Source: Protonemura montana (lineage: Eukaryota > Arthropoda > Insecta > Plecoptera > Nemouridae). From it: a stretch of DNA of 64,000 bases. Position 1 is the first letter of the stretch, and every line of letters begins with the position of its first letter. Shown piece by piece: positions 20,942 to 46,655 of the stretch. The position numbers and the translations under genes were made by a program. The DNA is taken from contig OX387602.1 in the NCBI GenBank assembly GCA_947568835.1, forward strand, positions 15,241,021 through 15,305,020, read 5' to 3'. A model generated the notes under the pieces. It did not search any database, was not told the origin of the DNA, and was given only the letters and a program-made list of their open reading frames with translations.

Positions 20942-22815
20942 CTAGAAGGTTTCTTCAGGGCGGAGCTTCACCAATTCGGCACTTTGATCCCAGAGTTTGA
21001 CGCTGACGACTGGGTCGAAAACAGTCTTAGACTTGTAAGGTTTGCAATCGCGGTAAAATCCGCCCGACTCGATCGCAGAAGTGGTCGCGCAATGCAGGAC
21101 TGTCTGGGCGCCCTGAAAGCATTGTGACCCGACAAAATCATAATAGGTCAGAATTGTAAAAAAATGGGCAAAAAGAAACAAAAGCATACAACGAAGAAAA
21201 CACAACTTTTGGAATTAACCAGACATTCAAAATAAATCAAAGGAATGAGAAATTGTCCCTCTTGTGTCAGGAAACCACAAAGGTCCAGAATCCAAAGTAG
21301 CTACTGGGCAACTGGAAATGGACATTAGAGGTTGATTTTTATGCAACTACAAGGTTTATTGTTGTCACCTAATGGTACAGTTCCTTCCATATTAAAGATC
21401 AACTAGATCAGACAAACTGAGCTAGGTAATTTCACTCATCACTGCTCTGAAAAATATCTAAGATCGGCAGGCCATTGGGTAAAATGTAGCTATGTGAAAA
21501 TCACCTGGTATGCACTGCGCATGTAGAAAAGTGCGATGGGAGCGAAGAAGATCCATTGATACCACTTGAAGGTGTTGGGTGTGTTCCTGAACAAGCCCGT
21601 GTAAGTGAATCCCGGACACAGAGCACACACTTCGACGCCAGTGTCCCGTGTTCGATACGCTAGCTCGCGAGCAAAGTACATATTGGCCAGCTTTGAATTG
21701 CAGTAGCCAGGGTTCATGCGACGGGTTGCATCGAAACCTTTCTCTCCATTCAGATTGTCAAAGTCAATAACACCATTTTCATGAAGCAAAGACGAGACAA
21801 TAATAACCCTGTGGAAAAAGGTATAGTTTTACTAAATTTCTTTGCAAAACAAACTTTTAATCATAAAAATGTACTGGTTGTAGGTACTATTTGTTTGGTA
21901 TGGAAAGTGACTATCTTTTTATATGTATTTATTAGGTACTTTTGTCAAAGGATTGAAGGACCTAATAACTTATTTAGAATCAGTACACAGGAATCAGGAC
22001 TCACCTGCTTGGGGCAGATTTCTTAAGGAGTGGAAGCAAAATATTTGTGAGTAAAAAGTGGCCAAGATGGTTAACCCCAAAGTTGATTTCAAATCCATCC
22101 ACTGTCTTCTTGTTTTGATCCACTGGCACCCACACTCCTGCATTGTCGATGAGGACATTAATTTCTGGGAAATCCTTTAAAATCACTTTGGAAAACTCCC
22201 GCACCGATTCCAACGATGCCAAATCAAGTTCAAGAGGTACCTAGTTGCAAGAAAAAATTATAGAATTAATGTAATGCCTCTACTTATAGGTTCAGAAAAT
22301 GAATGATGGAAAGATGTGGTAGTAATGTAGTTTCAGGCATAACTTTGGCTAGTCATTGCAGGGCTGGGATACACAGATCACCATTTGGTTATATGTGCAT
22401 GGTATTGTTGTAGTCAACAATGTTCCGTGTGTAAAGAAGAATGGCATTTTACGTAAACGCTGCTTACCTACATATTATTTTTCTGAATGTTCACGGAAGG
22501 ATGGGGTGTGGCTGGATTTTAGGTTAAATTGAGGGTGCTCACCAGTTCTCCGGTCGTAACAGTGCAGCGTATTTCCTCAATAGTACTCCTGGCATTTTTT
22601 AGATCACGACATGCCATTATTACTCTGGCCTTCTTTCTAGCCAATTCACGGACCGTTTCTTTACCTATGCCCGAATTGGCCCCGGTAACCAAAAACACCT
22701 TTCCTTGAAGGGAACCTTTCATTTTGCTGTGCCCCCATTGATATTCCCTGAACTTTCGCAAAATTCCGATTGCTATTACCACTGGAAAAATTACATACAC
22801 AACAGTCGATACCAT
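20942..22815 (-). CDS. Retinol dehydrogenase 11-14-like short-chain dehydrogenase/reductase
   Basis: Four minus-strand exons join in frame: 22815-22543, 22240-22005, 21808-21505 and 21112-20942, giving 327 residues, the usual size for RDH11-14-type enzymes. The N-terminus is a hydrophobic membrane anchor (about residues 2-19). A Rossmann fold follows with the cofactor motif TGANSGIG (44-51), the Asn-Ala-Gly motif (124-126), the catalytic serine region (175-176) and the active-site YxxxK (Tyr205, Lys209). The final exon begins with Gly-Ala-Gln-Thr and carries the tail typical of this group. Family members reduce retinal or oxidise retinol, and some act on other lipid aldehydes or steroids, with NADP(H) at the ER membrane; the substrate here cannot be read from sequence. 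An upstream GTG in the same frame is less likely than the ATG at 22815. The gene is divergent from the CFAP119-like gene. Confidence 0.92.
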
Positions 22816-24865: not shown

Positions 24866-27800
24866 TTAACGGGTGCTGGATGTATCAGATGTTTCTTCTG
24901 GGTATTCACGGGAATGATGGCGGGAGAGTTTAGAGATCTCTTCGTCTTGTCCATAAGTGCCCTAAAAATAATGGTGATTAATGGTTAACATAGTTTAAGA
25001 AAAAAAATAAGCAGTTTAGGTTGGCAGTAACAATTTTTACAAGCCACAAATCTAATTAAAATCTTGAATTTCACTAGCATAAAAAAAAAGCAATTCTCAT
25101 AAAACTTTAAGAGTCCAAATTCATATTCCTCAATTCAAACCCCCATGCATTTTTCAGCAAAATTAGTCAATATTTTTTCTAGTTGATGCTAATTTCTCAG
25201 AACTAGGGCAAACAGTTGTTGTTATTCTTCTTGAACTTTACAAGAACGTATTCAAAGCATGCATAATATTTACAGCCAGGTCTTTTCGTAAATTTTGCAA
25301 AATTTATAGTCTTTTCTTTACTACATTAAATAGCTAAAAGCTCATCTAAAATGCAACTCAAAATGTATATACAAAACCTGTTAAGATTTCTACAAGCGAG
25401 CGCACTATCTTTCCAGCGACAAGTGCAAGGCAAAGGCAAGGTAAGTGCTGAAACTTTATAACCTGAAGCAACTTTGCAACACCATGTATTTCTTGAGTTA
25501 TCGGCAAGTTGCGCTCTTCCTTGTTGATTTTCCTTCTACACCAATTAAGCAGCTTTTTGGCACTCATGCTAATTATTTATAAAGTTTGATGAAAGATCAT
25601 TCTACACTTCTTGAACAAGGCACCAGCAAGTCTTTTTATCTCTTTTTGTCTTTTGCATCGGCCATTTCTCCTTCGGTACAGAGCATTTCCTCCCTAACTC
25701 TTACCCAGTATATTTACTTTACATATAAAATGTATTTAAATAGAACTTTTAGATACGTAAGAGAGGTCACATTTTGCAAGTGCAAACTTTTAAGGTAAAT
25801 TGCAGCATGACAAAAATATTAAATAATTAAAGGTTCTCTTTGCATATCTTACTTCGGTTGATGTTGATGTGTCACTCCCTTCTCTACTTGAAGTCTGGCT
25901 AGAGCCATTCGATGCGATATTTTCTACCTTTTTATGGATTTCCAGGATTTTGTGTGGGTATGACAAAAGGGGCCAGCCATTGTTTTGAGATAAGGTTCGT
26001 GCCCGTAGCTTCCTACGCAAATTCGTGTTGTCACCAATTAGTCTGTTTATCACTTTTGTCATTAGCCTAGAAAAAAACAAGTTGAAAAATTAAATATTTA
26101 CCACCATTAAAGTTAAAAAAATCTTATATTATAAAATTAAATTAAATAATTAAAATTAAAGTCCAATGGGTGCATATACCCTTTTGTCCTGTACAACTTC
26201 TTGATTTCATTTTGGGGATTAAATTCTTTTTGTGCCACCATATCCTGCACCTGTGGTGGGCAATCCCCCCGCTGCATTGTGCACCGGACAACCATGCTTT
26301 GGCTATCAGAAAATGACACTTTAGACAAGATGGATCGAAGCTTTACGATTGATTGGGATTTGGAATTAAATTCATAATTCAAATATAGATATGCTTCTTG
26401 CAGTGCAGCCACCTGAAATAACAACCAAGGATATTAATGCTTGAACTGGAACACTTGAGCCTAGGCGCTTATTAAAAAAGACGACAGCAGGCACGCGGCA
26501 AAAGGAAACAGATTAACTGAATTTTAGGATTTTGCTTGACAAACTGACCTAATTCTTAGTACAGCACATCAATAAGAAATACATTTCTATTTTAACAGAG
26601 ATAACATTTCTAGTTGACGAATTGTTCAAAATGATGGAATTCGAAGGAATTTGAAAAAATGAGAGCATGCAAACACATACCTTCTTGTCAAAAATTAAGA
26701 ATGTGGATTTGTTTATCACTATATTTCATGAAATGTATTGCGTAATAGGAAACATTTAGCCTCAATAGTAGTGAAATGGAAAAAAATAATTTAAGCACTA
26801 TAAACACTCTTTTTTTGGTACATATTATAGTGCGTTAAGCAATAAACCATAGTCCCACAACCTAATATTATCATTGGCGTAGAAATAAAAGCGCTGGTTT
26901 CTGCAATAAAGAAGCATATTACCCATTTAAATCAATCATCTGAGAAATTATATCAAGTTTACATGCAATTATATATCAACTTATTTTTTATAAATGTTCC
27001 ATCGCTGATTATGTATGTATACATAATCAGCGATGGAACAAAAAATAGCTTTCGAGGTTCTGCTACATAAACGATAATGTTTTAAGACAGCTTAGTAATA
27101 GTGAATACTAAAAAATTGTATATATAAATTATAAAGCAACAAAAATGGGGGTTTGTGGTGACAGGAGATAGGTGATGGGAGACGTTGGTGGGTTGGCATT
27201 TCATGCACCAATGAAGAAAAAGCCAAGAACGTACCACATCTGCGAGTAATCATCCCACCACCACTTTTCGGTGACAATTAAGTACTCTCTCACCTCAGCG
27301 TTTGTTTTCTCACGCAATTGCACCAGACGTGTGATCTCACACTTGAGATTGGTCATCTCTTGCACCATAGTTAGGAGTTTTTCATTTGTGCAGCTACCCT
27401 GATTTTTCAGCAACAGGTGGGAAAAAAAAATATGATTAAAACATATCTTGAATGAACAACAAACACATTCCCCAGTTGAAAAAAGGATTAAAACTTAACA
27501 TTTCATACCTTCTCATCTTGAGAATTTGAAAGCATGGATCTAAGTTGGTCTACTTCAATGGCCTTTCTTTCCAAATGATTTTTGGCTTCAATCAAAAATG
27601 AATTTGCCTTGAACAGAGCCTCATGAAGCTTTCCATATTCTCTTCGACCCTCTTCCAGCTGTAATATTGAAAAACGGTAAACTCTAAATGGTAACAAGCT
27701 ACATTTCCATTTAAAAGGTAGACATAAACAAGTCAATCAACGCACTTCAGCATGCATATCTTTGTTGTCAACTCGCATTCTTTCCACCAGGCAGGTTTCT

Positions 27801-30800
27801 TGTCGCAGCTTGCACTCTAGGTTGAGAACTTGTGTGTTAAGTGCTTGTACTTCGTCTGACAGCTGCAGTTCCATCACATGCATCTCTTGCATCTTGGCAC
27901 GCAGCTGCCTGTCATTTTTAGTGAACGTAGCCTGGAGTGCAGCCTCGCGTTCCACCGCCTCTGTTAGAGCAGCTTGATTTTTCTTGCAGTTGCAGTTGCT
28001 CTGCACATCTTTGGTTGCATTTGCTAGCTCACACAGCCGCCTCTCCATGTCTCTCTGTTGCCAAGGAAGATCACATGTAATAATGTGTCACAATAAATAA
28101 GTGATGTTCACTGCTTTGAGATTTTTATCTAGCACCTATCTATGAAATACCTTTTCCTCATAGAACTGATTCTGTGAGGCATTGAATTCTTCATCTTTTT
28201 GACAAATTATACTCTCCATTTTGGCCAAGCTTCCTTGCATTGTCTGAATGTTCCTCTCTTGCTCTATAACCTTGCACCGTGAAGCACATCGGCAAGCTGC
28301 TAGTCTTTGACGCAGCTCAGCTATTTCTCTTCTTTGCCGATTCAGTTCTGCTTCTTTTCTCTTCAGCTGACATGACATAGAGTGGCAGTTGCACTCATTC
28401 ACCTTTTCTCGTAGCTCACTTATTTGGTGGGCTAGGCCTTCCAGCTCATCGTCCTTCTGAAGTAGTTCTGCTTTCAGCTCTGTACACTTGCATGAATTGC
28501 TTTTATGCTTCAGGTTATCAATTTCCTGCTCCATAAAATCCACTTGTTGCTCTCGTTGTTTGAGTTTGCTACGAAGTAAGGAGCACTGACAAGCTTCTGC
28601 TGAACTCTGCTGTTCACATATTTCTTGTTTAAGTAGTTTTATTGCATTCTCCTTTTCTTGAGCACAACGCTGAGCCATGTCGTAAGATTTCTGAAGTTTG
28701 TTCATAGAAAGTTTCCAATTTTTAATCTAGAATAAAAAGGTGAAGATTATCTCTAAACTTGCTTTTGGTTTCTAGACTTGTTTGATTTTTGACAAAGGCA
28801 ACGAAATGTTCACAACTTCTAGAGCTTGAGAGTCGACCGTGAGTTGCAGCTCTCCCAACTTCTCTGCATTCTCGTCATTCAGTCTCTCCTCATCAGTCAG
28901 TTGGGCTTCCAGATCCATGATTTGCTGTTCTAATTGCCTTACAGATTCATCTTCTGACTCTGCTCGAGATTTGCACTGAAAACGTATTTCAAACAATTAT
29001 TGCTGTGTACAAAAATTAGCAGGTATAAGAATCTAGTAAACGTTTACACAATACATGCCAGTCAACAATTACCTTACAGACACCTTTTGGAGAATTGTGG
29101 CTCTTCATACAAATAGCCTTCACCTTTTTGGTAACATTAATTTTGAAGTTCCTGGTCGATTCGTGGATTATTTGCATGTGCTGTTGCATCCTTACTAGGC
29201 TGGTTGTATTGCTGAGTTCGTCTTGTAACTAATAAGATACAAAATACGCTCCCTTTAATATTTTTTGATTTTATATTCAATTTTGCTCAATGTCTGTCTT
29301 TAAACTTACTTCTCTTTGCAAAATTGTTCTCTCGTAATTGACCTTAGCCATTTTCCGTAGTATTTCATCTTTTTGTTGCAGTTCCTCGTATAAACTGCCA
29401 TTCTAAATATTCAAATCATGCAATAAATGATAGATTTGTTAATATATAACATCATGGACAGCAAAATCAAACTCCACTGACCTCCATCATCAAGTGTTCA
29501 AGATCGGTTTGAAGCTTTTCCACCATATTTTTTAGTGCACCCAAGCCTTCCTCCTAAAAAGGTAAACAAGTACTCGAAAATTTTCCCACGGTAGACAATC
29601 TCAACCAAGTCACAAAAAGGGAAACCACACATCTTTGAGACAGTTGGCAAGCCGTAATTCGTAGACCCTGCAACATCTCCTGCATGCATTTACATTTTAT
29701 TACAGTATCTATCTTGCATTCACTCAATACCATGACAGATACCTTGAAATGAAACTGTCCAGCATTCTTGTTAAAGATGCCTTCCAACTGAGCAACATCT
29801 AGGATAAGATTGACGTTCTCTGCTTCAAGATCTAGATTCTCATCTCGCAGTCTTTCGATGATGTTTTCCTGCCTCAATACCTTAACACAAAGTATTTTAT
29901 AGCCGGATCAGCATCCAGAAAATAATACTACGATGCCACATTGGTGGGAAGATGTAACACGTCAATGCAATAGTCTCCTAGGACTAGCATTGGACAATTC
30001 AAGAAAGTGTAATCTTCACAATTTTTTTTTTTTTTTTTTTTTTTAAGGATCGGTTAGAAAAAGTATGAGCAAGGATTGGATGCAGTGACAGAATTAAGAA
30101 ATTAGAAACCACACAGAGAAGTATTTAACATTGCAATATATTGTTTTAAGGTAACTCGATGATATAAGCATTCATTGATGCACATGAAATTTAATTTGAA
30201 GAATTTTAACACTGTTAATAGCATATGCAAATGCAATATTATATATAATTATAAATCTGTTAACAAAGTATTTGCAAAAAAACAACAGCCAGTTATGGTT
30301 TAATTAATAAATAAATTAGTACTTGTTAGCTACCAAACATACATGCTGCTTGGTCAAAGGTCAAATGAAAACATTCCCATCAAATCTACATTCCAAAATA
30401 GACATCAGGATCGCTTTTGCACCGGCGTTTCAACGAGAATCTCGTTTTTTTATCTGAGATCATTTTTTGGATATTAACTTCTCAGCGGAGTCTTTAAAGC
30501 CAGCATATAAGTACAAAATAAGTAAATAGCAAACAGTATTCAGGTACCTAAAAGTTTCAGACATAGCTTGGTAATTTAGTTATTGCAGATTACATGATTT
30601 TTTTGGAATGAGTGGTAACATAATTTTTAAATAAAAACAGTAACAACTTTCTATAAATAATTAAAGGCAAAAGAGGGTCAAGAGATGACAAACCCCCAAA
30701 TAAGCAGGTATTTATCAGACAGGTAGTTGGTAATATGTCCCGCAAGTAAGCGCAAAATGTAAAAAAAAAAAAAAAAACAGGTAGAAAATTCTTAAATGTA

Positions 30801-33800
30801 CAATCCTTTGCCCCCCCCCCCCCCCCTCTCTTCTTGCTACACCGCTTCTATTAGGACTGCCTGAAAAATTTGTTTATATTATTAGCAAAGAAACCTCACA
30901 TTTTATACATAAAATCAAATTATTAAAATTGAATTGTCTTTTTACAGATGTGCTAACTAAATTGCCCAAAAATTAACTAACCCCAAAACTTCTACACATT
31001 AGTATCCTATAGGTTACAATTCATTCTAGTTCCTCTCTCTAAGGTTCCATCATACTCATGATCACCACAAATTTTCAATTCTTAGCTCCTACTATACCAC
31101 AACAACAGTTTTGATCAGAAATTAACAAGCACCGACTGTTCATTTAAAAAACAAAGCCTAATTAGCTGAGGAATCTGTTAACTTTAATTATAGAGAAAAG
31201 CATCGACAAATACCTTCTTAAATCACATAGTTTGTACAAATTACCATCTGGCATGTGGCAAGTACCTAGGCAGTTTATTCATGAACAGTCAATTCAAAAC
31301 TTTGATTGGTTAGTAGAAATAAAACTATACATATAGATTAAACCAGTCAGCTCAAAAGAGCTTCGTAACATTAGTAGGTTAGCATCAAGGATACGTTAGC
31401 ATAGTCCTGGCATATTCTCATCAGCATTAGTTCTACAGAAAGACTTTCTATTTTTACTGACTTGATTAAAGATCAGTCCAATATCAATGCTGACAAAAAT
31501 GAAAATAAAAACATAAAACAAGAGAATATTTCAAGGAATGGCACATAGCAAAAATTGATATTATTGCCAGTGGAAAAACAACGAATAAGTTATGAACTAA
31601 CATAAGGTACTTGGTACCAAACTCAATAAGGTACTTTAACAACCCACAAAGCCACCTGATAGGTGACTTTGAACACTAAACTGAAGGAAGCAAATATAAA
31701 AAGACACGTGAAAGAAGAGAACGGTCTGGAGATCAGACGTCATGCACGGTGCGTTTAGTTTTACTGATAGCACCTCCCGTCGGCCAAGACCAAGAGCTGC
31801 TGGACCCGCCTACACTCACTTCGAAAGAACCTCTGCCCTGCAGATCCTCCAACTGATGCTTGGTCGCCAACAGCGCCTTTTGCAGATTACCGATGGTCAC
31901 CTGCTGATGGGCTACTTGCCTCTCTAATTCTTCCACCAGTACATTTGTACTCGACTCTCCCTACAAAAATCTCATATGATTGGTCGTTCCAAGGAGGAAG
32001 ATTATGCTATGTTTAATGGTGTATCCCAAAAACTCAGGTGCATCAGCATAGTTAGGTCTTTGTTCGATTCGTGTTCATCTCGTCAGATGTGAACACTTCA
32101 AGCCGTCTCAAATGAGACATTTAACTTGTATTGCCAACTCACGTACCTATTTTAACCCCTTCCCCTCAGGTACATGTCAGAAATAGAATTGCTATGAATG
32201 CTCAATGGTTGGACAACAAAGCCCAAACAATCAATTCTCCCATTTAACATGTTTAAAAGGTAAATATTTACTTTTACAAATGAAAACATTGTTAGATATC
32301 GATGCACCTGAGTTATTGGAATACTCCACAAATAAATGTACAGGAATTAAAAGTAAAGCTTTAAAATTGCTTCAGTCAATTAGATTAACGTTAAAATGTG
32401 CAAGCAGGATATAAAAGAAGTGCTTACTTCTGTGGATCAACATTGAAATTGTTTAGTTAATTGTTTTATTCAACAGATTACCATAGAAAATATAAAAAAC
32501 CGTCTTTTAAAAAGTAAGATTTTTTATAAAAACTAGCAATTTTTCCGGATAACTGTACGGGTTATTTTCAAAGTTGTACTCACCGGTGGTAATGGTTGGC
32601 ATAAACACGCATCACCTTCAGAGAACTGATTATTTAGCGGATGTTGGGAGTCGGTTGGCGGTTTCTTCTCCGAACACTGGCATCTTTGCTTCTGCTTTTC
32701 GAGCAAAAGAAAAGTACATAATAAAAGCCTTGCAATCATATATAATTGTATATGTATGAATAAAAGACATTGCATGAGTAAAGAGCCCTTGGGTTTCCAA
32801 TTAGTCAGAGCCTCAGTGCTAATGTTATGCTGCCTTCGCAAAATATGCTGACCGATGACTACATTACCGACAAAAGTGGTGGTCAACCAAAGTGAGTGTT
32901 AAAAAATTCATCATCAAATTGCAATCGCTTGCATTTAGACTGGTCTACGCTCAATTAACCTCAACAATTCTAAAACCTAACGGCGCTACTCACTTGTTCA
33001 ACGTTGCTCTTCCATTCACCCTTAATTGATTGCACTTGAGCTCTTGAGTGTTCAAGTTCTTCTTCCAGCTGCAACGTTTTTTTGCAGTACTCGTCCAAAA
33101 CGGTCTGCTGCTCTTTGCTTGAAGGAAGTTGATTTACAGATTTCCTGTCATTTCTCTCTGACATTGTGCGAATCTGAGCGCGTGCTTTGTCAAGCGCATT
33201 TTGAAGATTCTTGGACCTGCTATTCAATTCGTCAACTATCGCGGTGTGCTCTCCAATTAGAGCTACAAGGTCTTTTGCGGGACTGTTTTCACTATACACA
33301 TCTTCACTAAGCTGAGAAAAAAAATAAGTTGAGTTAATAAGTAATTACTGAGCTGCTTGAAATCAGTCTTGCTATGTGGAAGCCAAAGAAAGCTCCTCAC
33401 CAGATTTTCAATGTCTTTTTGAATCTGTTCAAGCTCGTAGTTGGTCGTTTCCAAAGCATCTTGAAGGATCTCTGTAGGATTTTCCTGTACGACTGCATCG
33501 TCTTCTTCAGCACAGTTGCAATCTTCGTCCTAGCAACAAATTTCAAATATTCAGTCAAATGAACACTGGCAATGCGGAAACGATTACACCATAAGGATAA
33601 ATACAGAAACTAATACATCATTAACATACATCAAAGGTATGAATAAAAAAACCATAGAAAAACTAAGATAATACATATTGGATTGAAACGTTAAATTAAC
33701 TGAAGGATTGTTTGCAATTTGCACAGACATATTAAGTCTACTTTTATCAAAGCTTTATCTAATTCAAAAAGATATCGGTTCCAAATTAACTATAACGTAT

Positions 33801-36800
33801 AAAAATATGTTATATGCCACAAAGTATAAAATTAACCAATGGCTCTGAATAACTCCATCAATCCATATTTTTTATTTATTAGCAGTAACACTTCATATAC
33901 TCGTAACAATAAACAAGCATATTACACACCACCAAAGTAAAATTACCTTTTGTTTCAGTACAAACCAAACCAAATAAATTTTAGAAAGAAAATATTTATT
34001 TTAAATACACGTTTTTATTGGATTCTAAAGAAGCACAAATAGACATTTGAAAAAAAAAAAAAACTGGAGGATGAAAAATAAAAAATATATTCATTACTTA
34101 CTGCATGGCTGCCATTGACTGCACTACGCTGCAAGGAGGCAACCTGACTTTGAACACTCTCAAGATTTTCTTGCAACTCTTTAACCTTCTCCTCATTTGC
34201 TTCTTTAAAATTGTCAAACACCTCTAACTCATCAACCAATATATCTATCTGCTCCTTGAATTCTTCAATGGTCCTCCTTACTTCGTTATCGCTTCCTCGA
34301 TAAACATGATTTCGGATAAGTGGAGATCTCGAAGGAGGTCGTTCCTTGTTAGCCATCTGGACCAATCTGCGAGAGGCGTATTCTGTAGCTGCATATTGTT
34401 CCACATTTTCTCTCAGTTCATCCTGGGCATTCTCCAGCTCTGCCTGCCATTTCTCCATCTTGCGTTCACTTTCTCTTCGGCTTTTCTCAGTCTTTTCTTT
34501 CACTTGCAAATAACTGACTAGTTCTACCTGCACTTGGCCCATGTTGCTCTGAATCTGAGCAAGCGATTCCTTTACGCCTCGAATAACATCTTGCTTGAAC
34601 ACCATTTGTTTTTCTCTTGAGAGAACTACTTGCATTATATCCATGAGTTCACAAGTAATCTTGTCCATTGCCAGCTGGAACTCATTTGCCGCAATTTGAT
34701 AATGGTCCGCCCTCGTCTGGTGTGGGGACGCAGATAGATTTGCAAATGATTCACTCAGCGATTCTTTCAGTTGCAGAATTTGGATTGCTTTGCCTTCAAG
34801 GCTTATAACTGGGACTTGGTTTTCTAGTTCGCTTTGACTGGTGTCGTTTTCGAGTTCATTCATCTCTTGTCTGTTTTTGTAAAGAGTTTGTTTCAACTTC
34901 TCAATAATGGTTTCCAGTTCGTTAAACTTTTTTTCACGTTCATTCAAATTACTGAGCAGAGTCTCCATTTCCTCCGTCATGTCTTCGATTGCTGCTTGCG
35001 CCTCGACAGTTTTAACACGAAACTCTTCTATGCTAGCAGCACGTAACATTTTTGGAGGCTGTACGTCTTCTTTAGATACTCTTTTGGAGCAAGAAATTTC
35101 AGAAGGACTGGATTTAGTAGTATTGGTACATTTCCTCGGACTATCAGTAGCTTTACACAAACCAAAATGTGCCAATCTCAACAAAGATCTCAACTGCACA
35201 ATCATTGCATTTTTGTGACATATTTCTTCTTCTCGTTCTTCTAACATTAAGTTCATTTCCTCCACTTGCAGCATGGAGCTTTTTAATCCTTTGAAACAAT
35301 AATTGGAGTCCTCTCTTTGAGCAATTTCGGTATCTCCTTGAGAGAAATCTGCAAGGACACCAGGCATTTCCGTAAAAACTGTAAACTGAGTGGGATCACC
35401 GATTGTTGGTGGTGAATGTTCTCCATTTGATCCATTCAACATGCTTGATTTTGATAAACTTTCCTGTTTTTTGGCCAAGTCTTCTTTAAGTTCTTCTATA
35501 AGTATCTCCTGTAAGGCAATCTTCTCATCGCGTGCCTTTAATATTGCGATGTTATTTTCTTCGTTCATTTCATCTGTGGCTACATTTTGTCCAAAACCTG
35601 CCTGGCTTGATGATTCTGGAATTTGCGAATTGCTCTACGAAAACAAAAAAATGTTCATGGTAATTGCTACAACAGAATATAGTTTTATACTTTGATAACA
35701 CTGTACAAATTGCATAATTTCAGCAATGCTGCTGAAATGGTTGGCAACTGGATGCATTTTTTACCGCAGTTAAACAAAAATATTTACATAAAAGCACATG
35801 CTAATCAAAGAATGGTTTACGTATTATAGAAAAAGAAAGAGCATTCAGAAAAATCAAGTCACAAGCAATATATATGCCCTTGAAAATCATAGAGATACTA
35901 ATTTGCAGACATTCTTATTTCTTAACATGAAACCACAACAATCTTCTACTTGTGAGAATGAAATGAGCTATAAAAACTATCAGTTAGAATATCACCATAA
36001 TGCAGTATTTTAGACACAAGCAGTTAAGTATTTAAGAAAAGTAGGCCCAGAAGAAATAAATACATTTGTTTAATCAATACAATCAATACTAACACAGTGT
36101 TCAAGTACAGGCACAGAACGTAGATAGACAAATAAAAACAGAACCATTCAAATCAAACACATTATTCATTGAACAACAACAAAAAAATATATATAAGGTC
36201 ACCAGTTTTGTTAGAGAAATTTGAACATTAGATTCAGAGCTACCATGAATGCTCATCTCTGGAAGGTGATGAGCTGAGATGATTCCCCAGATTGCCCATG
36301 CAGAGATTAAGTGACAATTAACAGGCTATTTCAGCACCACTCCCTGATCATGAAGCAAACTTCTTGCGGTTCCATGCATTAGCCATGCAACAAGTGGCGA
36401 TTAATGTCAATAATGGCCCTTGCGATGAAATTCAGGAGGTTTAAGGAAATCAGATTTTGTCTCCTTAACCACTCCTACCTTGGGTCGCGTCTCTCCGTAA
36501 GACATCCCTTTAAGCTTGGCAAGTTTTATTTCCTTGCGCATCTCTTTGATTATGCCATCTTTGAAGATAATCTGCACGTCTGCTTGCCTACAACGGTCCT
36601 CTAGTTGCAGGCATTCACGTTTCAGTTGGGATATTTCATCGTGTTTGTCTGCTACTTCTCCCGTGAGAGCAGCTTGCTTATCCTTTGCACACTGCACAGA
36701 GAACCAAGAATAATGTAAAACATGAACAGTCATTGTCTTAAGATTAGAACTTAATTGTAGACACAATTAAAGCCAGTCGTACCTTGTCCATGTCTGTAAT

Positions 36801-39800
36801 GACATTTGTCAGGGCTTCTACTTCCTGTTTTTTGATGAGCAGTTCTCTATGTACCGAATTAAGATTATCAGTAAGTTGTTGTTTGTCACTGAGCACATAG
36901 TCTAGACGATACTCCGTTTCCTGCAGCTGCCGCGATAGTATGAGGATCTCGTTTTGCTGATCATCAATCTTCCGCTGTTTAACAGATAGTGACTAAAACA
37001 GGCAAAGAAAATAAATTCACCTTGAAGAACTATGAGAAGTTGTGCAGTCCTAACTTAAAAATATTATATGATGAGTGCCAATAAAACTTACCGTTAAAAT
37101 CCCAAAGGGCTTCAAAAATCATATGTGCAGTGTTTTTTTTTTTTCATTTTCATGCAAACAAAAAGTAAGAATATCCTCTTCCCATGCATAATTAGATATA
37201 TGTGCATTAAGTTTTAGTAGAAAATGTTGGGAACATTAGATTTAACACCTTATACGTGGTGACATGCATTTGATAGTTAAGGATGTTATAAAACAGACAT
37301 ATCCTAAAGTCCCATATAAAAGGCACTTTTCTAATTTTGTTTTTTGTAAGTTGTTAACTTGTCCTTACACTTCCTGCCATGTACATATACGATTGCTATC
37401 ATTTTACTGGGCCAAACTGGCCATGAATATTATAGGCTATTTAAGTGCCATTAGAAAGATAAGTGTGTAATTACTTGTGTTACTTCGGTAGCATTCTGCA
37501 ATAGACTGCTCACAGTGCAGGCTTTTTCTTGAAGATCATCACGAAGCTCTTGAATTTTCTGGATTAAGCTTACAATTTGCTCATCTTTCAAAGCCATGTG
37601 CTCCTTCATTGTCTTCAAATCATTCTCCAGGGATCCAATTACACTAAAACATAAATGGAGAAAGTTTATAATAACACTTATGATATGGGCAAATCTCTAA
37701 TGTTTACTTTTAAAATTTCCCAAGTTTCCAAAACATGTGAACTAGAATGGCCATTTTTATGCAATAAACCTAGATTCAGTTTCACTATTATACATACACA
37801 CCTATTTCTGTCAGTTAATTCCTCATCAATGTTTTCCTGGGTTCGATTAAACTCCGACAATTCTAGACCGAGTTTTTTCAGTTGGGCATCCTTACATAGG
37901 ATTTCCTCATTTAGCTTCTTCACCTCAAACTGCAGAGCATCTGAAGCCCTGCAGTAATGAAATATGCCCATCAAAAATGTATGTAATGCAATTCCTATAG
38001 TCTTTCAAAAATCAAATATCAACAATGACTTACTTCTTATTCTCTTCTAGTTGCAGTCTTAGGTTATCGCAGTCGCAATCCTCCTCAGATGTATTGTTGG
38101 CCTGAGGGCAGCAAGAAAATTATATTGAGAAAGAAAATTTAGAAAATTTAGCAGAAAACAGCAGAAAGAGACACATTCTTGAACAAGCTTGAAAATTAAA
38201 ATTTAACAATGTTCTTTAAAAAGGTCTTTAAAAGAAAACTAACCATCGGTAATGAAGTATACAAAAATCAATTAACTTTGCACGTGCCTCAATCCTAACA
38301 ATCAAACTAGAAAATTGCACAAAATTTCACAGAAATTGCAAACAGATATGCACCCAGAAGAAGCAGGCATTTCAACAGGGAATTTTTAATACATACAAGT
38401 CTTTAAAAAAATAAGTTTATTACATCATAAAGGACAGGAATTGAAGTAAAAAAATAACTTTAAAAGTTTCATAGATTAAGCCGAAGAAATGCAAGAGCAA
38501 CTTGTCTATGTGGTAGAATGGCTCTCCCAATTAGTAGAGTTTCCATCGTCAGATGGTTGCAGCACCCAAGTATTGACCGAGTCTCGTTTTCTATCGTGTA
38601 ATGCTCCACCACTTCGATCTAATGATATTTCTAAACAGAATTTAGGGAGCGTTGGTTTGGCAGGCTCCATTGGTAACTGATCTCCAAAGGGGCACGAGGA
38701 ACAGAGTTGGCATGGTGCCATACGTTGAATGTGAGTGCCATTGCATTTGCATGGTCTATGATACACTTTTGGCAATAAAGGAGTTTGTGTGTCAACGTTC
38801 CGAAAGGGGATTGACCCCACTTGCAGACTAGAGCATGGACACCGAGTATATGACGTGCTTTCAGTGATTGGCGGACTGCTATAGCGTCTTGTCAACGAAC
38901 TGACTTTAGCGTCGTGAAATTGATACGGTTTGTATGTTACGTTCTGAGAATACCGGGGATTAAGATTACTAGGGTGTGCTATATTTGTTTGGTTGCAACA
39001 TAATTGACATTGCGTGTCAATAGCAAGATTTGCAGTGTATGGCGTACTAAAACAGCTAGATGTTCTCTGGTTAGTTAGATTGTTGAATCGTGCATTTGGC
39101 TCATAAACTCTGTTAGCAAATGGGCGTGGAGAGCAAATATTGTAAGAGGGAATGAAATTACGAGTGGCAAGGCATTTACAAGCCTCATATGGTGATTCAT
39201 TTGCTCTGCTTTGTGAATTAAAATTACTAGGTGGAATCCAGTTGAACTGGTTATTTTGCAAGTGTTGATTTCCATCGTATGGGACGTAAGAATGAATGGA
39301 CGTAGTGATCGGTAGTTGCAAATCTGATGTCTGATTCACATTGCTACTTGAATAATGATTTTCTTTGCTCAAATTTTGCCGAGGACTTGGTATGTTGGAA
39401 AACATTCTTGTTAATCGGGGGTCACTTTCGGACAACGATGTCACATCATTCGGATGTGTCCGATTCGTGTTTAATTTACTGGAACCTCTAAATTCTGGGC
39501 TGGAAATAGGAACACTAGATTGATTGACCCTATTGCTCTGGCCATTGCTTGAATATGGATGTTGATATTCATCCTTCGATGCAGGTGGTGAATTTGGAGT
39601 CTTAGATGCCATTGCAGTGGAATTAGCATAGTTTGAATATTCTTCAGATGGACTTTCTTTGTCTGATGCTCCCAATGTATTCTTCCTGTGATTGCTGGCT
39701 ATTTGTGTTTCACTTCTATTTGAGCTTTGATGACTATAGTAAGATGTTGGTGTTTGACTCCATGGCAACCCTTCAATTCGAGAATCTCTTCCATTTGAGG

Positions 39801-42800
39801 ATTGGTCATCTAGTTCCAAGGACGGTGAATTACCATGTACACCGGGTGGCTTTGTAGCTTTGACTGTGCAAGTACTGAGAGGGTTACCTTCAGGTATTGA
39901 AGGACTATTGATTTCAGTGTGATTACTTATCAAGTTCTCAATTTCTTTCTTAGATTCTAGTTGTGAGCTGGTGGGCACAGTACTTATTTGTGTGTCACTA
40001 TTTTTAGAGCTTCGATACCCTTTGCTCAATTGTGGTGAGGTAAATTTTAGAGAGTCGTTTCTCTCTAATTGACCATTCAATTTGGGCAAGGAATATGAGG
40101 GGCCATGTTCATTTGGTGTCATATGCCCTTTTAAAGAATCACTTCCATTTGAGTGTGCATACCCATTGTTATAAAATGGTGACAGACCTTGCCTGCCTGG
40201 ACTTATTTGTGTTTCACTTCTATTCGAGTTTTCATTATCTTTGTTGTCAAGTGATGGTTCTAGGCTGTTAGATAGAGTTGCTTCGACTAAACTGTAATTT
40301 TTATAGCCTAGGTGTTCTTGGGGAGAAGCAGTAACATAGCCATCTAAATCTCTAACCACATTTTTTTCAATTGGTGATGGCATTATTTGAGATACACTTC
40401 CTTTGAAAATTTGTATTTCATTAGAATTAAGGGGTGGTTTATAAATGATACCCGGTGTTGCTTTTGTTTGAGTGACTCCCTGAATGAGAGGTTGAGGATT
40501 ATCGTTAGACTTAGTTAGTGGTTTCAAAATGTCTTTGGATATTGATGTCAATTGAGTATCACTTTTGCTTTTTGCAGACACTGCACTAGACTTTGGAGGA
40601 TTATTCTTAACACCTCCGGGATAAACACTCTTTTGAGAATCACTTGTATTTGGGTGCAGTGTATCTTCAAGAACCAAATGTGGGAATATTTGTTCAATCA
40701 GAGGAACCGAGACATTTTGATCAACTGTTATAGTTGTGACAGAGGCAGGGGTTACATTTCTAGGTTGCCCGGGATTGGCCAGAGTATCTCCCTTATTTGA
40801 GCAGGTACAATTTTCACCACAGTTTGGTGTAGATAGCCTCTGATAGTGATTGTTTGGTGCAAATTGACTGGCTGGACTGGCCAAGGGTAGAATTCTGTTA
40901 GGTGATAAACTCAGGTGACTGGATGGCATTGGCTGAAGATTGATTCCATTAGAGGTTTCATTTTGTTTGTTAGCGGTCAGAGTTGGAATTGTCTTATAGC
41001 CTGAGTGCATAGCCCCAATATTCGAGGAAACTACAGTAGAATCCAGTGGTCTGTTCATAGTACTTCTGGGAATGGATCCCGTATTTGAATCAAGATATTC
41101 TTTGCTTGGCATTGTAGAAATCTTGTAGCCATCTGGACTCTTATCGGAGTCCGGAAATTGATTTAGATTGCTCGGTGGATTCGAAATAGCTTGTATGTAA
41201 TTTCTATTGAGAATCCGATTCTCTTCTACACAATTTGCTGGCTGACTCTGATGCAAGTTTTTATTAGAACTAGCTTTTGATAAATCAAGTGAAACGCTAA
41301 AATTGGGCGGTATGTTAATATTTCTTTGAGGATTGAAGCTTAAATCAGTATGATCTTTAATTTTCTGATTATCTCTGCTGGTACTTGAAGGTGGACTCTG
41401 ATAGCCATGTGGAGAACTATTCAAAGTCGAGTTAAGATTGCTAGGTGTAATAGAACTAGCCTGTTGGTACCTCTTAGATGAGCCCCAATTCTCCTCATTA
41501 GCACCTATTAGTGGGCCCTGATCGTCATAAGCAGAACTTCTTTTTGAATAATCAAGAGCTATGTTTGAATTAAGATTGCTACCATCCTGGTTATTAGGTG
41601 GAATCGAACTGATTTGTGGCTCATATCCACTTGAACTCCAGCTTTCTTCAAATGGAGTTGCTGGTGGATTTCGAATACTAGGTGGAACCACACTACTTTG
41701 AGGGTATTCAAGAGGAATGTGTGTGGGGAGGTTGCCAGAAGGAGACTTCATGCCATGAGTACCACTGGAACCTGAGTAAGTGAGATTTTCATTGGGTGTT
41801 GTATCTAAACCCCCATCAATTGGAGCGAGCCCACTTATGTGAGGGTGGCTGGATTTTGAAATTAGATTGGAATTGTGTATTTTGGTATTGAGCGTTGATT
41901 GGTCTTGTGCAGGTAAGGTATGCATGCTCGCTGGATTGCTTCGTTTACCCACCTGGCTATCAGAGGTGGTCTCATTTGGCTTGGTCAACCTAAATACAAA
42001 ATAAATCTTATTAGTAAAGGTATACTGCACACCAAATTCCCTCCATTTTGTTGGATTATTTCAGAACCAAACATAAAAATGAGCTGAAGTATTTTTCTGC
42101 TAGGAGGGCAGAGTGGTTTAGAGCTGCAGTGCGATGTTTCAGTTTTGCTTTGATATATTGGGCTTTCGGGCCTAAAACGGAACTCTGTTTATGTTGCAAC
42201 CGCCAATGCTGTTGAAATGTGGACAAGTATAAATAAATATATTTTCTTACTTGGGTTTATCAGAATATGTGCCAAAAATCTCTTCCAACGTGACTTCAAA
42301 GAAAATGTAATCATCAGTATTCCAGTTGTCATGTTCTCGGCCTTGTTGGATGAGTCTGCAGAGGTTTCTTATGTCGCTCTTTAAATGATCAATTTGTGCG
42401 TTATCTTCATGGCCCTGTAAACAAATTATTTTGGTTACGTGAAAGGAGCACACATTTAAAAAAAAGAGCTTTACATTTGTAACATATGAAACATGCATAC
42501 ACTGGAATAAACCTACCTGCACCCTCCCATTTGGAACACTCTGCAACTGGTTGTTGTAATCCTGAGCTTTAGCCATATAATCTCTTGTTGCAATAGAGGT
42601 GCCTTTCAGTTTCTCTTCTATTAACTTTACGCGACATGCAGTTTCTCGCTCCAGATCCTCAAGAGCATGGACCAATTCGGCATTCTGAACGTTGATATCA
42701 GTTATCCATGATTTAAGTGTGTGCACTAGTGGCTGAAAAGTATATATGGAAGCATTGGAACAAAAAATGACAAATATACTGTATTTTAAACAATTTAATC

Positions 42801-43312
42801 TTTAAGTTTGGATGAAGCCCTACAGAATATTTACCAAAATGTTGCTATCACAGTAGATAGGAAAAGTTACAATATGGTTAAAATTATTATTTAATTATAT
42901 CCCTTGCATCTTTAAAATATTAGAAATTATTAAACTATTAAAAGTACAGGGGATTTTATTATCATTTCAGTAAGCACCTCAAAATTTTGTAAGCATTAAA
43001 AATGTAATCTTTTGACTGTAGTCTACATTAATTTGCTTACATGCAGAATATCTATAAATTGCTGTGTGGCTTTTGAATAATTAATAGATAACGCTAGTAC
43101 TAAAATATGAAAAGAAATATACTTACATCATTTGCACTTAGTCCTGATCTAGATTCTATTTTCTTCACGCGCTCTTCGTATAAACTGTTCAGTTCGGATA
43201 TTATGTTTAAAGATCCAGATTCACCACATGCCAGTGCCATGCAATCAAATTGATGGTACTGCGATCCACTTGATTGAGCTGACGGCAAAGCTTCAGAGTT
43301 GTTGGTAATCAT
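24866..43312 (-). CDS. Long coiled-coil protein with repeated Cys-x-Cys pairs, family unknown
   Basis: Twenty-seven minus-strand exons join without a frame break: 43312-43127, 42732-42517, 42414-42251, 41989-41953, 38101-38034, 37948-37802, 37643-37475, 36992-36783, 36691-36479, 35634-34102, 33529-33401, 33311-32994, 32694-32584, 31960-31820, 29880-29743, 29553-29482, 29402-29310, 29228-29073, 28975-28814, 28726-28151, 28054-27746, 27658-27509, 27398-27294, 26412-26180, 26066-25853, 25552-25463 and 24961-24866, giving 2,011 residues. Nearly all of it is charged heptad-type coiled coil with no enzyme motif. At least ten Cys-x-Cys pairs occur; four in the exon at 28726-28151 are spaced exactly 33 residues apart, and one (CKC) is created by the splice joining the 29073 and 28975 ends. 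Size and composition suggest a cytoskeletal, centrosomal or golgin-like scaffold, which is inference. The weakest joins are the 28814 donor and the 25552 acceptor (AAAAG). The exon at 32694 has a tandem acceptor. Several donors have in-frame read-through extensions. Confidence 0.8.
26995..27040. repeat. Perfect 21-bp inverted repeat with 4-bp loop
   Basis: Arms of 21 bp are exact reverse complements, separated by TGTA. The palindrome lies in the intron between coiled-coil exons 27398-27294 and 26412-26180. It would form a strong hairpin in DNA or in either strand's transcript. No target-site duplication or transposon end is obvious. Confidence 0.95.
30022..30044. repeat. Poly-T tract (23 T)
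   Basis: Uninterrupted T run in an intron of the coiled-coil gene. On the gene's sense strand it is poly-A and could be the tail of an old retroposed insertion, but no recognisable body lies beside it. Confidence 0.9.
30761..30826. repeat. Poly-A (17) and poly-C (16) tracts
   Basis: A17 at 30761-30777 and C16 at 30811-30826 in the same intron. The lengths may carry sequencing error. Confidence 0.9.
33530..34101 (-). other. Intron of the coiled-coil gene
   Basis: AT-rich intron between the 1.5-kb exon and the exon that opens with Asp-Glu-Asp-Cys-Asn-Cys. The sense-strand donor is GTAAGT and the acceptor GCTAG. Nothing else is supported. Confidence 0.7.
35635..36478 (-). other. Intron of the coiled-coil gene
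   Basis: Intron of about 840 bp upstream of the 1.5-kb exon. If its donor (AAG|GTAGGA) is not used, the preceding exon runs on for 23 more codons to a stop at 36407. Otherwise it is AT-rich and featureless. Confidence 0.65.
38416..38421 (-). terminator. Intronic poly(A) signal for the read-through form
   Basis: Minus-strand AATAAA 85 bp after the stop codon of the read-through terminal exon, and upstream (in the transcript sense) of the next coiled-coil exon at 38101. Its position is what a composite terminal exon needs. Confidence 0.5.
38506..43312 (-). CDS. Alternative short-N, Ser/Asn/Pro-rich form of the coiled-coil gene (read-through terminal exon)
   Basis: The first three exons (43312-43127, 42732-42517, 42414-42251) are shared. 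If the donor CAG|GTGGGT at 41953/41952 is not used, the fourth exon runs on from 41989 to a stop at 38506, giving 1,349 residues. The added 1,149 residues have no interruption, are rich in Ser, Asn, Pro and Thr, and look disordered. They contain a degenerate repeated motif of the form [ST][DE][ST]Q (TSDSQ, SDTQL, SETQI, SDTQI, SETQI). The last 270 or so residues are Cys-rich, with CKC, CPC, CKC and CxxC pairs like those in the coiled-coil form. A minus-strand AATAAA follows 85 bp beyond the stop. An open frame this long without function is very unlikely, so I infer a genuine alternative product. Another possibility is that this is the main form and the downstream exons are reached only by the minor splice. 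Confidence 0.7.
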
Positions 43313-43806
43313 TTTGGCTATTTGTTTCTTTTAAAACTGAAATTTTCGGCGCGATTGAAAGATAAAATGTGAGTTGAAAATAAATAATACCCTAAAAATA
43401 TCCCCATGATATGACAGACATGGCAGCCATCCCTGTTGTCATTTGTCGCCTGAAGCAGTGTACTGCGCTGCGCCGCGGTGTGCACTTGATGTTTGTTTTG
43501 ATTTATTGTTGGCACTGTCAGTTGGGGAAGTGGCACCGAGATGTCGCCACTTGCAGGAGGCGGTGAGCTCATGACTGGTACCAACTAAATGGCAAAACAA
43601 ATGTTACACCACCCATCAGGCTAAACCACTTGTTAAGTTGGTAATGTGTTATATAGTATTTCTTTGCAAATGGTAAACGTTGTTGGTCATCCATAACCTA
43701 CCGACGCGGAAAATTTTAACAGATTTTACAAAAGAAGTAAATACTGAAGCTTTTTCTCGCTTGTTAGCCTATTTTTATTTTAGAGTAAAAGTGTAAAACC
43801 GCAAGC
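43313..43806. promoter_or_regulatory. Divergent promoter region between coiled-coil and CWC22 genes
   Basis: Only 494 bp separate the two oppositely directed start codons, so both promoters lie here. The segment at 43480-43580 is more GC-rich than its surroundings. No TATA box is evident. The coiled-coil start codon has A at -3 (CAAAATG). Confidence 0.5.
43318..43584 (-). other. Possible upstream open reading frame of the coiled-coil gene
   Basis: An 88-codon minus-strand open frame ends five bases before the coiled-coil start codon. If transcription begins upstream of 43584, this frame would be translated first and could limit initiation at 43312. No domain is recognised, and part of it may simply be promoter DNA. 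Confidence 0.3.
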
Positions 43807-46655
43807 ATGTCGGAAAAAGAAGGCCTTGATAAAGGGGAGAAATGTTTGGGAGGAACCGAAAAGGAAGGAAGCAAAAGGCCGACTAAAAACAAAAACAGCA
43901 GCACTGATTCAGATTCCGACGGTGCAGAACGCAAGTCGTCTGCTAAGAAGCGAAGAAGCCATGAAGATAGTGAGGGTCATGGGGATAGCAGGGAAAGGAG
44001 AGTAACAACATCAAGGTCTCGAAAAGATCGACGCTCCTCCCCTGAGAATGGCAAAGGGCGTAAGAGCCAAGACAATTCGGATGATCCAGACAGAAGGCAT
44101 CGGTCTTCATCTCACAGACATCAAAGATACTGGGGAAGAGACGACTCTGAATCACGTTCTTCCCGCCGCAACAATGATCGTTATTGGAACAAGTACCAGG
44201 CAAAGGATGGTGATCGATCAGTAGGATCACGATATTATGGAGATGATTCGTCTAGGGAAAGAAAACGTGATGGTAAGGAAAACTATCACAACAAAAGAAA
44301 GCATGATGACGACGGTGATTCAGCACGTCAAGATGACAGGCGCAACAAAACTAATCGGTCTCGGGAAAGAGATAACAAGCCCAAGGCTGAATCACAATTA
44401 AATCAAGAAGAAAACCCACCCCCTCCAAAGGCACCAAGAAAAGTGATTGATATGCTCACTTCAAAAACTGGTGGTGCTTATATTCCCCCAGCAAGGCTAC
44501 GAATGATGCAAGCCCAAATTACAGATAAGTCGAGTGCTGCTTATCAGAGAATTTCCTGGGAAGCATTAAAAAAGTCAATTCATGGCCATATTAACAAGGT
44601 TAATACAGGAAACATAGGTATTATTGTGCGCGAGCTTCTTAAGGAAAACGTTGTGCGTGGACGAGGGCTTCTCTGCCGATCCATAATTCAGGCGCAAGCT
44701 GCTTCTATAACATTCACTCACGTCTATGCTGGTCTTGTGGCAGTCATAAATTGCAAGTTTCCCAATGTAGGAGAACTTTTGTTGAAGCGGTTGATAATCC
44801 AATTTAAACGAGGCTTCAAACGCAATGACAAGAGTGTCTGCATTTCGGCTGCCACATTCCTCGCACATCTGGTCAATCAGAGAGTGGCGCACGAAATTTT
44901 GGCTTTAGAGATACTGACATTACTTGTAGAGAGCCCCACAGATGATTCAGTGGAAGTTGCTATTGCTTTTCTGAAGGAGTGTGGAAGCAAACTTTTAGAA
45001 GTATCAAACAAAGGAATTCTTGCCATCTTTGAGATGCTTCGTAATATTCTACACGAGGGTCAACTAGAAAAGAGAGTTCAGTATATGATTGAGGTGATGT
45101 TTCAAGTACGAAAAGATAATTTTAAGGATCACGAAGCTGTCATCAGCGATCTAGACTTGGTCGGAGAAGAGGACCAGTTTACGCACTTGATTACACTCGA
45201 AGATGTAACAGACCCAGAAGATCTTCTTAGTAAGTCTTATAATAATTTAAAAAAAATTGCTAGTGTTTAACTATGTCATTTGAGGTTTATATGTAATTTC
45301 ATAATAAACTGGAAACTGCCTTTCTCTATTTTAGATGTGTTCAAGCTTGATCCAGATTTTGAAGTGAATGAGGGAAAGTACAAAGCTTTGAAAGAAGAAC
45401 TTTTGGACGAAGAGAGCAGCGGAAATGAGAGTGGGTCTGGTTCGGAGGAAGAGGACGACTCAGATGCTGAAAGCGAGAGTGCCAAGCGAGCTAAGGAGGA
45501 GACCATTATCGACAACACCGAGACCAACTTGGTTGCGCTGCGACGCACCATCTACCTTACTATTCACTCGAGTTTAGACTTTGAAGAGTGTGCCCACAAG
45601 CTTATGCGGATGGAACTGAAACCCGGCCAAGAAATAGAATTGTGTCACATGTTTTTGGACTGTTGTGCTGAGCAGAGGACATATGAAAAATTCTATGGTC
45701 TGTTGTCACAGCGGTTCTGCATGATCAATAAGATATTCGTCCCTCCATTTCAGCAGATTTTCAGAGACACTTATGAAACCATTCACCGCCTCGATATTAA
45801 TAAACTTCGTAATGTAGCCAAGTTTTTTGCTCATCTCCTTTTTACTGACGCCATCTCCTGGGAAGTTCTCTCGCTGATTCGTCTCAATGAAGAAGACACT
45901 TCTAGCTCAAGTCGTATTTTCATCAAGATCCTTTTCCAAGAGCTTTCAGAGTACATGGGCCTGACCAAACTAAACGATCGAGTCAAAGATGTGTGAGTGT
46001 CTACCTATTGCTTAATGGAAATCAAGATGGGGTTTTTGCATAACTTATACTAAGTGGTTATTATTATTTCAGAACTCTTCAGTCCGCATTTGATGGTTTG
46101 TTCCCGAGAGATGATCCCAAAAACACTAGATTTGCAGTTAACTTCTTTACTTCAATTGGTTTGGGTGGATTAACGTAAGTGAACTCATTATTTGCTGGCT
46201 GCGTACACATTTTGTTGAATCTGTAAAATTGTACATTTTTTGTTGTGTTTCCAGAGATGAGCTTCGAGAGCACTTGAAAGCCCAGTCAAAGTTGGCAGCT
46301 GCTGCAAAGGTTGTGCCACCGCCACCTGCAGTCAGTAAGAACGTTCCAAACGACTCCTCTAGTTCTGATTCTAGTTCTAGTAGTTCAAGTTCCAGCAGCT
46401 CTGGTAAGACTTACCACATAAAAACTGTTTTATTTGGTGGTGTCGAAATTTTGGATGTGTAACAAGTGTCAATTTTTTGTTTTAGATTCCAGCTCCGAGT
46501 CTGAATCAAGTGATGAAGATGATCGTAAGAAATCTAAGAAGAAGAGCAAGAATATGAAAAAGAAAGTGTCTTCTAAAGTTCCATTGACGAAAGTTTCCCA
46601 TAGTAGGAAAAGTAGAACGCCTGGTATGTCCAAGCACAGAAGCAGTAGAAGATAA
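43807..46655 (+). CDS. Cwc22: Pre-mRNA-splicing factor CWC22 (nucampholin)
   Basis: Five exons join in frame: 43807-45229, 45335-45992, 46073-46174, 46255-46403 and 46486-46655, giving 833 residues. The first 210 or so residues are Arg/Ser/Asp-rich and probably disordered. A YIPP segment (about 224) introduces a MIF4G domain (about 245-435), followed by the characteristic [20 protein letters not shown] stretch. An acidic linker leads into an MA3 domain (about 535-650), then [20 protein letters not shown] and a Ser-rich, basic tail. CWC22 is a spliceosome component that binds eIF4A3 through its MIF4G domain and is required to load the exon junction complex onto mRNA. Length is near that of animal orthologs. 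The gene is divergent from the coiled-coil gene and followed in the same direction by Rab5. The identification is secure; the exact start assumes the first ATG. Confidence 0.96.

Follow-up and report, generated by a model that had tools for sequence, protein, structure and literature searches.

An open reading frame of more than a thousand codons lying within an intron raises the question of whether it codes for protein and, if so, to which gene it belongs. We are interested in such a frame in the plecopteran insect Protonemura montana, located in a stretch of 64,000 nucleotides (nt) analyzed here as a whole (the window; positions 15,241,021-15,305,020 of contig OX387602.1, hereafter C1, in a 258 Mb genome of 34 contigs). 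The minus strand of the window carries a gene for a long coiled-coil protein, for which we picked 26 exons by eye. The frame in question begins directly behind the donor of the fourth exon at 41953 and ends at 38506, ahead of the fifth exon with its acceptor at 38101. The first-pass annotation had proposed that this one gene switches between two proteins, a coiled-coil rod of 2,011 residues and a composite product of 1,349 residues with a long disordered tail, sharing only their first 200 residues. Judged from the sequence, the intronic stretch looks like a genuine protein-coding one and not like a product of chance. With moderate confidence, we interpret it as a composite terminal exon, in which intronic polyadenylation would compete with splicing and provide the gene with an alternative 3' end.

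Coding character of the private tail frame

The minus strand is free of stop codons from 42060 down to the TAG at 38506. The part behind exon 4 (41952..38506, minus strand), referred to below as the tail, comprises 1,148 codons plus the TAG, in phase with exons 1-4, which agrees with the 1,149-codon open frame of the first-pass annotation. The size of the composite product, 1,349 residues, was likewise reproduced when computed from exons 1-4 and the tail. With the base composition of the tail itself, an open run of this length has a probability, (1-p_stop)^1148, of 1.2e-30. The longest open run in simulated 3.55-kb sequences reached 140 codons under an intron model and 200 codons under a tail model (300 sequences each). 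None of the other five frames of this stretch is open for more than 86 codons. The base composition of the three codon positions is uneven in the tail (chi2 151.7, p 3e-30). Two intron samples of the same length gave chi2 values of 4.5 (p 0.61) and 9.3 (p 0.16). When the tail was divided, the three-base periodicity was significant in five of the six stretches tested. An accidental open frame in an intron is thus rejected by the open-run probability, the simulations, and the codon-position periodicity.

The self-comparison of the tail at the DNA level revealed 28 ungapped matches, and in 27 of them the offset is divisible by three (binomial p 2.5e-12, calculated as if the matches were independent, although they are not entirely so). 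After 100 shuffles of the codon order, an average of 3.1 matches kept the register and 1.0 did not. The tail had 11 matches at E up to 0.1 versus a maximum of two in the shuffles, so that none of the 100 shuffles reached 11. The self-matches in register indicate that the tail contains degenerate in-frame repeats. Among these, the motifs S-[ED]-T-Q-[IL] and P-S-N-[LF]-N, both selected post hoc after inspecting the sequence, occur in four copies each against expectations of 0.007 and 0.015, respectively. At the protein level, the best scores of a window-based self-comparison (60, 60, and 59) hardly exceeded those of 10 shuffled sequences (best 59).

The encoded protein is rich in serine, asparagine, and proline (15.9% S, 10.2% N, and 9.8% P). 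Its cysteine pairs are located mostly close to the C-terminus, including CKC at residues 1068-1070 and CxxCxxC at 1081-1087 of the tail. Cys-x-Cys occurs four times against 0.32 expected, a number reached in none of 5,000 shuffles (p 0.0001 from 20,000 shuffles), and Cys-x-x-Cys is also enriched (three seen, p 0.004). Searches of Pfam and NCBIfam found no family for the tail, and no PDB entry matched it at E up to 1. A single-sequence fold prediction of the last 249 residues produced no fold, with a mean predicted local distance difference test score (pLDDT) of 34.9. The composition and the absence of a fold agree with the disorder that had been proposed for the tail, although a single-sequence prediction is uninformative and does not demonstrate disorder. 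In its own genome, the tail had one match among four candidates scored, namely itself; the last 249 residues had one further match with E 0.25. A frame belonging to a mobile element is not supported, given the single genomic match of the tail, to itself, and the lack of any transposon domain in Pfam and NCBIfam.

Splice sites, polyadenylation signal, and rival explanations

We scored the splice sites with a matrix built on those of the gene itself, leaving out each site when it was scored. The exon 4 donor at 41953 (CAG/GTGGGT) scores 10.61 and ranks 6th among the 25 donors of the gene. Among the 172 GT dinucleotides between 42060 and 38000, it is outscored by the exon 5 donor at 38034 alone, which makes a role as a decoy unlikely. 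As the first-pass annotation had noted, this donor is predicted to join in phase to the exon at 38101, the frame continuing from exon 4 into exon 5 (38034..38101, phase 0, acceptor ccctcag, donor GAA/gtaagt), which is the first exon of the rod. Exon 4 (41953..41989, 37 nt) possesses both an acceptor and a donor; when the donor is left unspliced, the frame as read from the letters continues to the TAG at 38506. Because the tail frame and the rod frame both run on from exon 4, both continuations are encoded, and both have the appearance of coding sequence.

The minus-strand AATAAA that had been described between the stop codon and the next coiled-coil exon is also in place. It occupies 38416..38421, starting at 38421, 85 nt beyond the TAG and approximately 315 nt ahead of the acceptor at 38101, and is a candidate polyadenylation [poly(A)] signal for the tail form. 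An ATTAAA is present at 38390 as well, so the tail is followed by both hexamers known from upstream of intronic poly(A) sites. A second AATAAA, at 41265, lies within the tail frame itself. The anatomy required for a composite terminal exon is present, with both products encoded in frame, whereas the production of both is what we infer from it.

Several observations weigh against a composite terminal exon. The last 104 codons of the tail, part of the fifth stretch in the periodicity test, lack significant periodicity (chi2 4.2, p 0.65). Mismatches between the in-register repeats are distributed as 72, 70, and 80 over codon positions 1, 2, and 3, that is, without an excess of silent change between the repeats. 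The synonymous codon usage of the tail exceeds its null expectation (z 5.6 and 7.5). Against an intron background, however, the open frame scores 0.0015 per codon and the other two 0.072 and 0.081, so synonymous usage fails to single out the open frame. Neither synonymous codon use nor the repeat mismatches thus gave a sign of purifying selection on the tail, and a depletion of decoy donors within it, as would be left by selection to remain exonic, was not significant. The acceptor at 38101 is ordinary (score 4.06, rank 15 of 25), with 19 other AG dinucleotides between 42060 and 38000 scoring equally or better; its support comes from frame and place, not from the score. As for the poly(A) signal, the other introns of the gene contain eight AATAAA in 8,653 nt (0.92 per kb). 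One within 100 nt would be met by chance in about 1 of 11 cases, which makes it weak evidence when taken alone.

The main rival is a nested gene. The tail would then form a gene of its own with a single exon, in the same orientation as the host, starting at the ATG at 41925 from a promoter near exon 4 and encoding 1,139 residues without the shared N-terminus, while the host would be spliced as the rod only. This ATG sits 28 nt past the donor with an A at -3, the strong exon 4 donor looks as though it were always used, and the proportion of G at four-fold sites differs somewhat between the tail (0.128 of 494) and the rod (0.201 of 626). A nested gene would have no need for the tail frame to be open upstream across exon 4 as well, in phase with exons 1-3, as it is, and we regard such a gene as rather improbable. 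Another arrangement would place two genes in tandem, one composed of exons 1-4 and the tail ending near 38400, and the other being the rod from 38101, with the donor at 41953 as a decoy. The stop codon and the AATAAA indeed separate the tail from the rod, and the ordinary score of the acceptor at 38101 would fit. However, exon 5 starts at an acceptor, and its unspliced frame extends only 18 nt upstream before it closes at 38119, with no ATG in this part. Exon 5 therefore needs an upstream exon, the first methionine of the rod after residue 201 being residue 285. In addition, the donor at 41953, in phase with exon 5, is second only to 38034 over 4 kb. We consider tandem genes less likely for this reason, and their probability low.

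Alternatively, the tail could be a giant internal exon, spliced from an in-phase donor at 38821 or 38905 to 38101, so that a single protein of about 3,000 residues would result. The two candidate donors, both in phase 0, reach scores of 7.76 and 7.69 that fall inside the spread seen for the donors of this gene, and the absence of significant periodicity from the last 104 codons also speaks for this arrangement. The number of tail sites scoring at least 7, five, is nevertheless close to chance, since 500 synonymous shuffles averaged 3.19 such sites and 93% of them had no more than five. In addition, the 104 open codons past 38821, which bear the CKC and CxxCxxC motifs, would be left unexplained. 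We deem this very unlikely. The same low probability applies to a tail that is a former exon or frame, kept open by history and no longer expressed, with only the rod in use. The lack of any sign of purifying selection would suit it, but at the roughly 6% of stops expected per triplet, 1,148 open codons would presumably soon be lost without constraint. A third form of the product lacking exon 4 was also rejected, because skipping this exon, as computed by splicing the sequence, leads to a stop at residue 203.

The predicted products and their surroundings

A composite terminal exon would leave the N-terminal module in both products. The module is encoded by exon 1 (43127..43312, open from the ATG, donor GAT/gtaagt), exon 2 (42517..42732, acceptor ttttcag, donor CAG/gtaggt), exon 3 (42251..42414, acceptor tttacag, donor CAA/gtaaga), all in frame, and exon 4. 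Together, exons 1-4 sum to 603 nt and thus to 201 codons, where the first-pass annotation had counted 200. The module has no significant match in the PDB (best E 0.05).

Joining 41953 to 38101 keeps the frame open through the rod, whose exons 6-26 (24866..37948, minus strand) were assigned by eye as a single coiled-coil frame with ten Cys-x-Cys and a stop codon at 24866-24868. The present list of 26 exons yields 1,980 residues. The in-frame rod of the first-pass annotation is thus recovered, but not its 2,011 residues, and the exon ends are uncertain. Two of the 25 donors, 28817 and 26180, have negative scores and were probably assigned to the wrong place, a possible reason for the earlier figure. 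The Pfam scan took in the tail frame, four unspliced frames over exons 2-3, 6, 9, and 10, and the spliced first 470 residues, exons 11-26 lying outside it; the rod parts scanned gave only coiled-coil families, all below the cut-offs. In NCBIfam, the first 470 residues gave 12 families, likewise all below the cut-offs, the lowest E-values being SMC-like. An intron of the rod contains a perfect inverted repeat (26995-27040) with two 22-nt arms and a 2-nt spacer, possibly a small-transposon remnant or a hairpin.

Cys-x-Cys is enriched not only in the tail but also in the rod (27746-38101, minus strand), with ten copies against 1.23 expected, about eight-fold, and none of 5,000 shuffles reaching ten; this count refers to a 1,773-residue version whose end was misread, not to the rod of the 1,980-residue list. 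The shared 201 residues contain no Cys-x-Cys, and the rod contains no Cys-x-x-Cys. The occurrence of Cys-x-Cys in both alternative ends may reflect a shared biology, for instance bridging by disulfides or metal. More speculatively, one N-terminal module might be tied into two kinds of disulfide- or metal-bridged structure.

We envisage the following course of events under the composite terminal exon. If the spliceosome uses the donor at 41953 together with the acceptor at 38101, the product would be the coiled-coil rod protein. When cleavage and polyadenylation near 38400 come first, the donor would be left unused, and the 1,349-residue protein would result, with the tail replacing the rod. 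Since the poly(A) signal precedes the acceptor by only about 315 nt, the polymerase would present both almost together, and the outcome would be set by the balance between splicing and 3' processing in each cell type. The strength of the donor points to splicing as the default, so that the tail form would depend, in some cell type, on active 3' processing or on restricted access of U1.

On the plus strand, a gene with an MIF4G domain, presumably CWC22, lies head to head with the coiled-coil gene (43312-43807), with about 490 bp from ATG to ATG. A shared promoter for the two genes is likely. Further along the minus strand, the gene at 20959-22815 reads by eye like a short-chain dehydrogenase, which we assume from its TGxxxGIG motif. 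Elsewhere in the genome, copies of COX1 reside inside a large nuclear contig (C4:5760925-5762262 and C4:5776811-5777755; L002 and L004). The former scores 455.5 bits, equal to the mitochondrial copy on C34. These copies point either to mitochondrial DNA that entered the nuclear genome recently or to a join made in the assembly. The mitochondrial contig C34 (15,885 bases) carries tRNA-Leu(TAA) between COX1 and COX2, the pancrustacean order. TTAGG arrays are abundant in the genome, with 7,938 forward and 7,633 reverse matches versus 1 and 0 for a reversed control; on C1, those among the matches listed lie near 0.92, 0.96, 1.04, 1.10, 11.6, 14.2, and 16.5 Mb. Gene order and repeats together mark the host as most likely an insect or another crustacean relative.

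Comparison with known systems

Drosophila centrosomin is a coiled-coil gene with a testis form, CnnT, a tissue form with different ends, and resembles the present gene in being a coiled-coil gene. No match to centrosomin or another known coiled-coil family exceeded the cut-off in Pfam for the parts scanned. We also recognized no comparable insect or coiled-coil case among the matches listed, as far as titles and the beginnings of abstracts tell, and one may exist in print. Composite terminal exons account for 1,648 of 2,675 resolved human isoforms with intronic polyadenylation, and AAUAAA or AUUAAA is found upstream of the intronic cleavage site in 80% of the human composite cases (PMC5928244). 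TRAP150 and U1 are described as acting on composite terminal exons (PMC4227790).

The secreted versus membrane form of the IgM heavy chain is the classic composite terminal exon: the choice between splicing an internal donor and using an intronic poly(A) site swaps the C-terminus, as we propose here (PMC7852185, PMC5928244). The gene described here differs by a private part of 1,148 codons. In the short form of the IgM heavy chain, the private sequence is small. In the case of titin novex-3, a giant filament gene also yields a shorter protein with a private coding end, one with its own knockout phenotype in mice; there, however, the end is a separate alternative exon (exons 45, 46, and 48 being called mutually exclusive), whereas here a shared exon would be extended unspliced (PMC11178842, PMC5852582). 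The poly(A) site in intron 3 of CstF-77 offers the same race between a donor and intronic polyadenylation, but its donor is weak and no protein product is apparent there (PMC3708835). Our locus has a long coding extension and a strong donor, and this strength of the donor counts against our interpretation.

Intronic polyadenylation has mostly been discussed as truncating proteins. If our interpretation is true, the 1,148 private codons would show that it can build a second large protein, and the strong donor, with a poly(A) signal that precedes the acceptor by about 315 nt, offers a simple, testable example of how splicing and 3' processing race each other. As a tentative and less secure extension, we picture a lineage-specific gene that places a 201-residue module either on a 1,779-residue Cys-x-Cys coiled-coil rod or on a 1,148-residue disordered Cys-x-Cys tail. 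The choice would be a timed race between the strong donor and the poly(A) site, and internal duplications within the intron would have lengthened the tail without breaking its frame; intronic polyadenylation would thereby give rise to a second large protein and not to a truncated one. The kind of switch is already known from the systems above, but the size of the private coding extension is, as far as known, unusual, as is the enrichment of Cys-x-Cys in both alternative ends.

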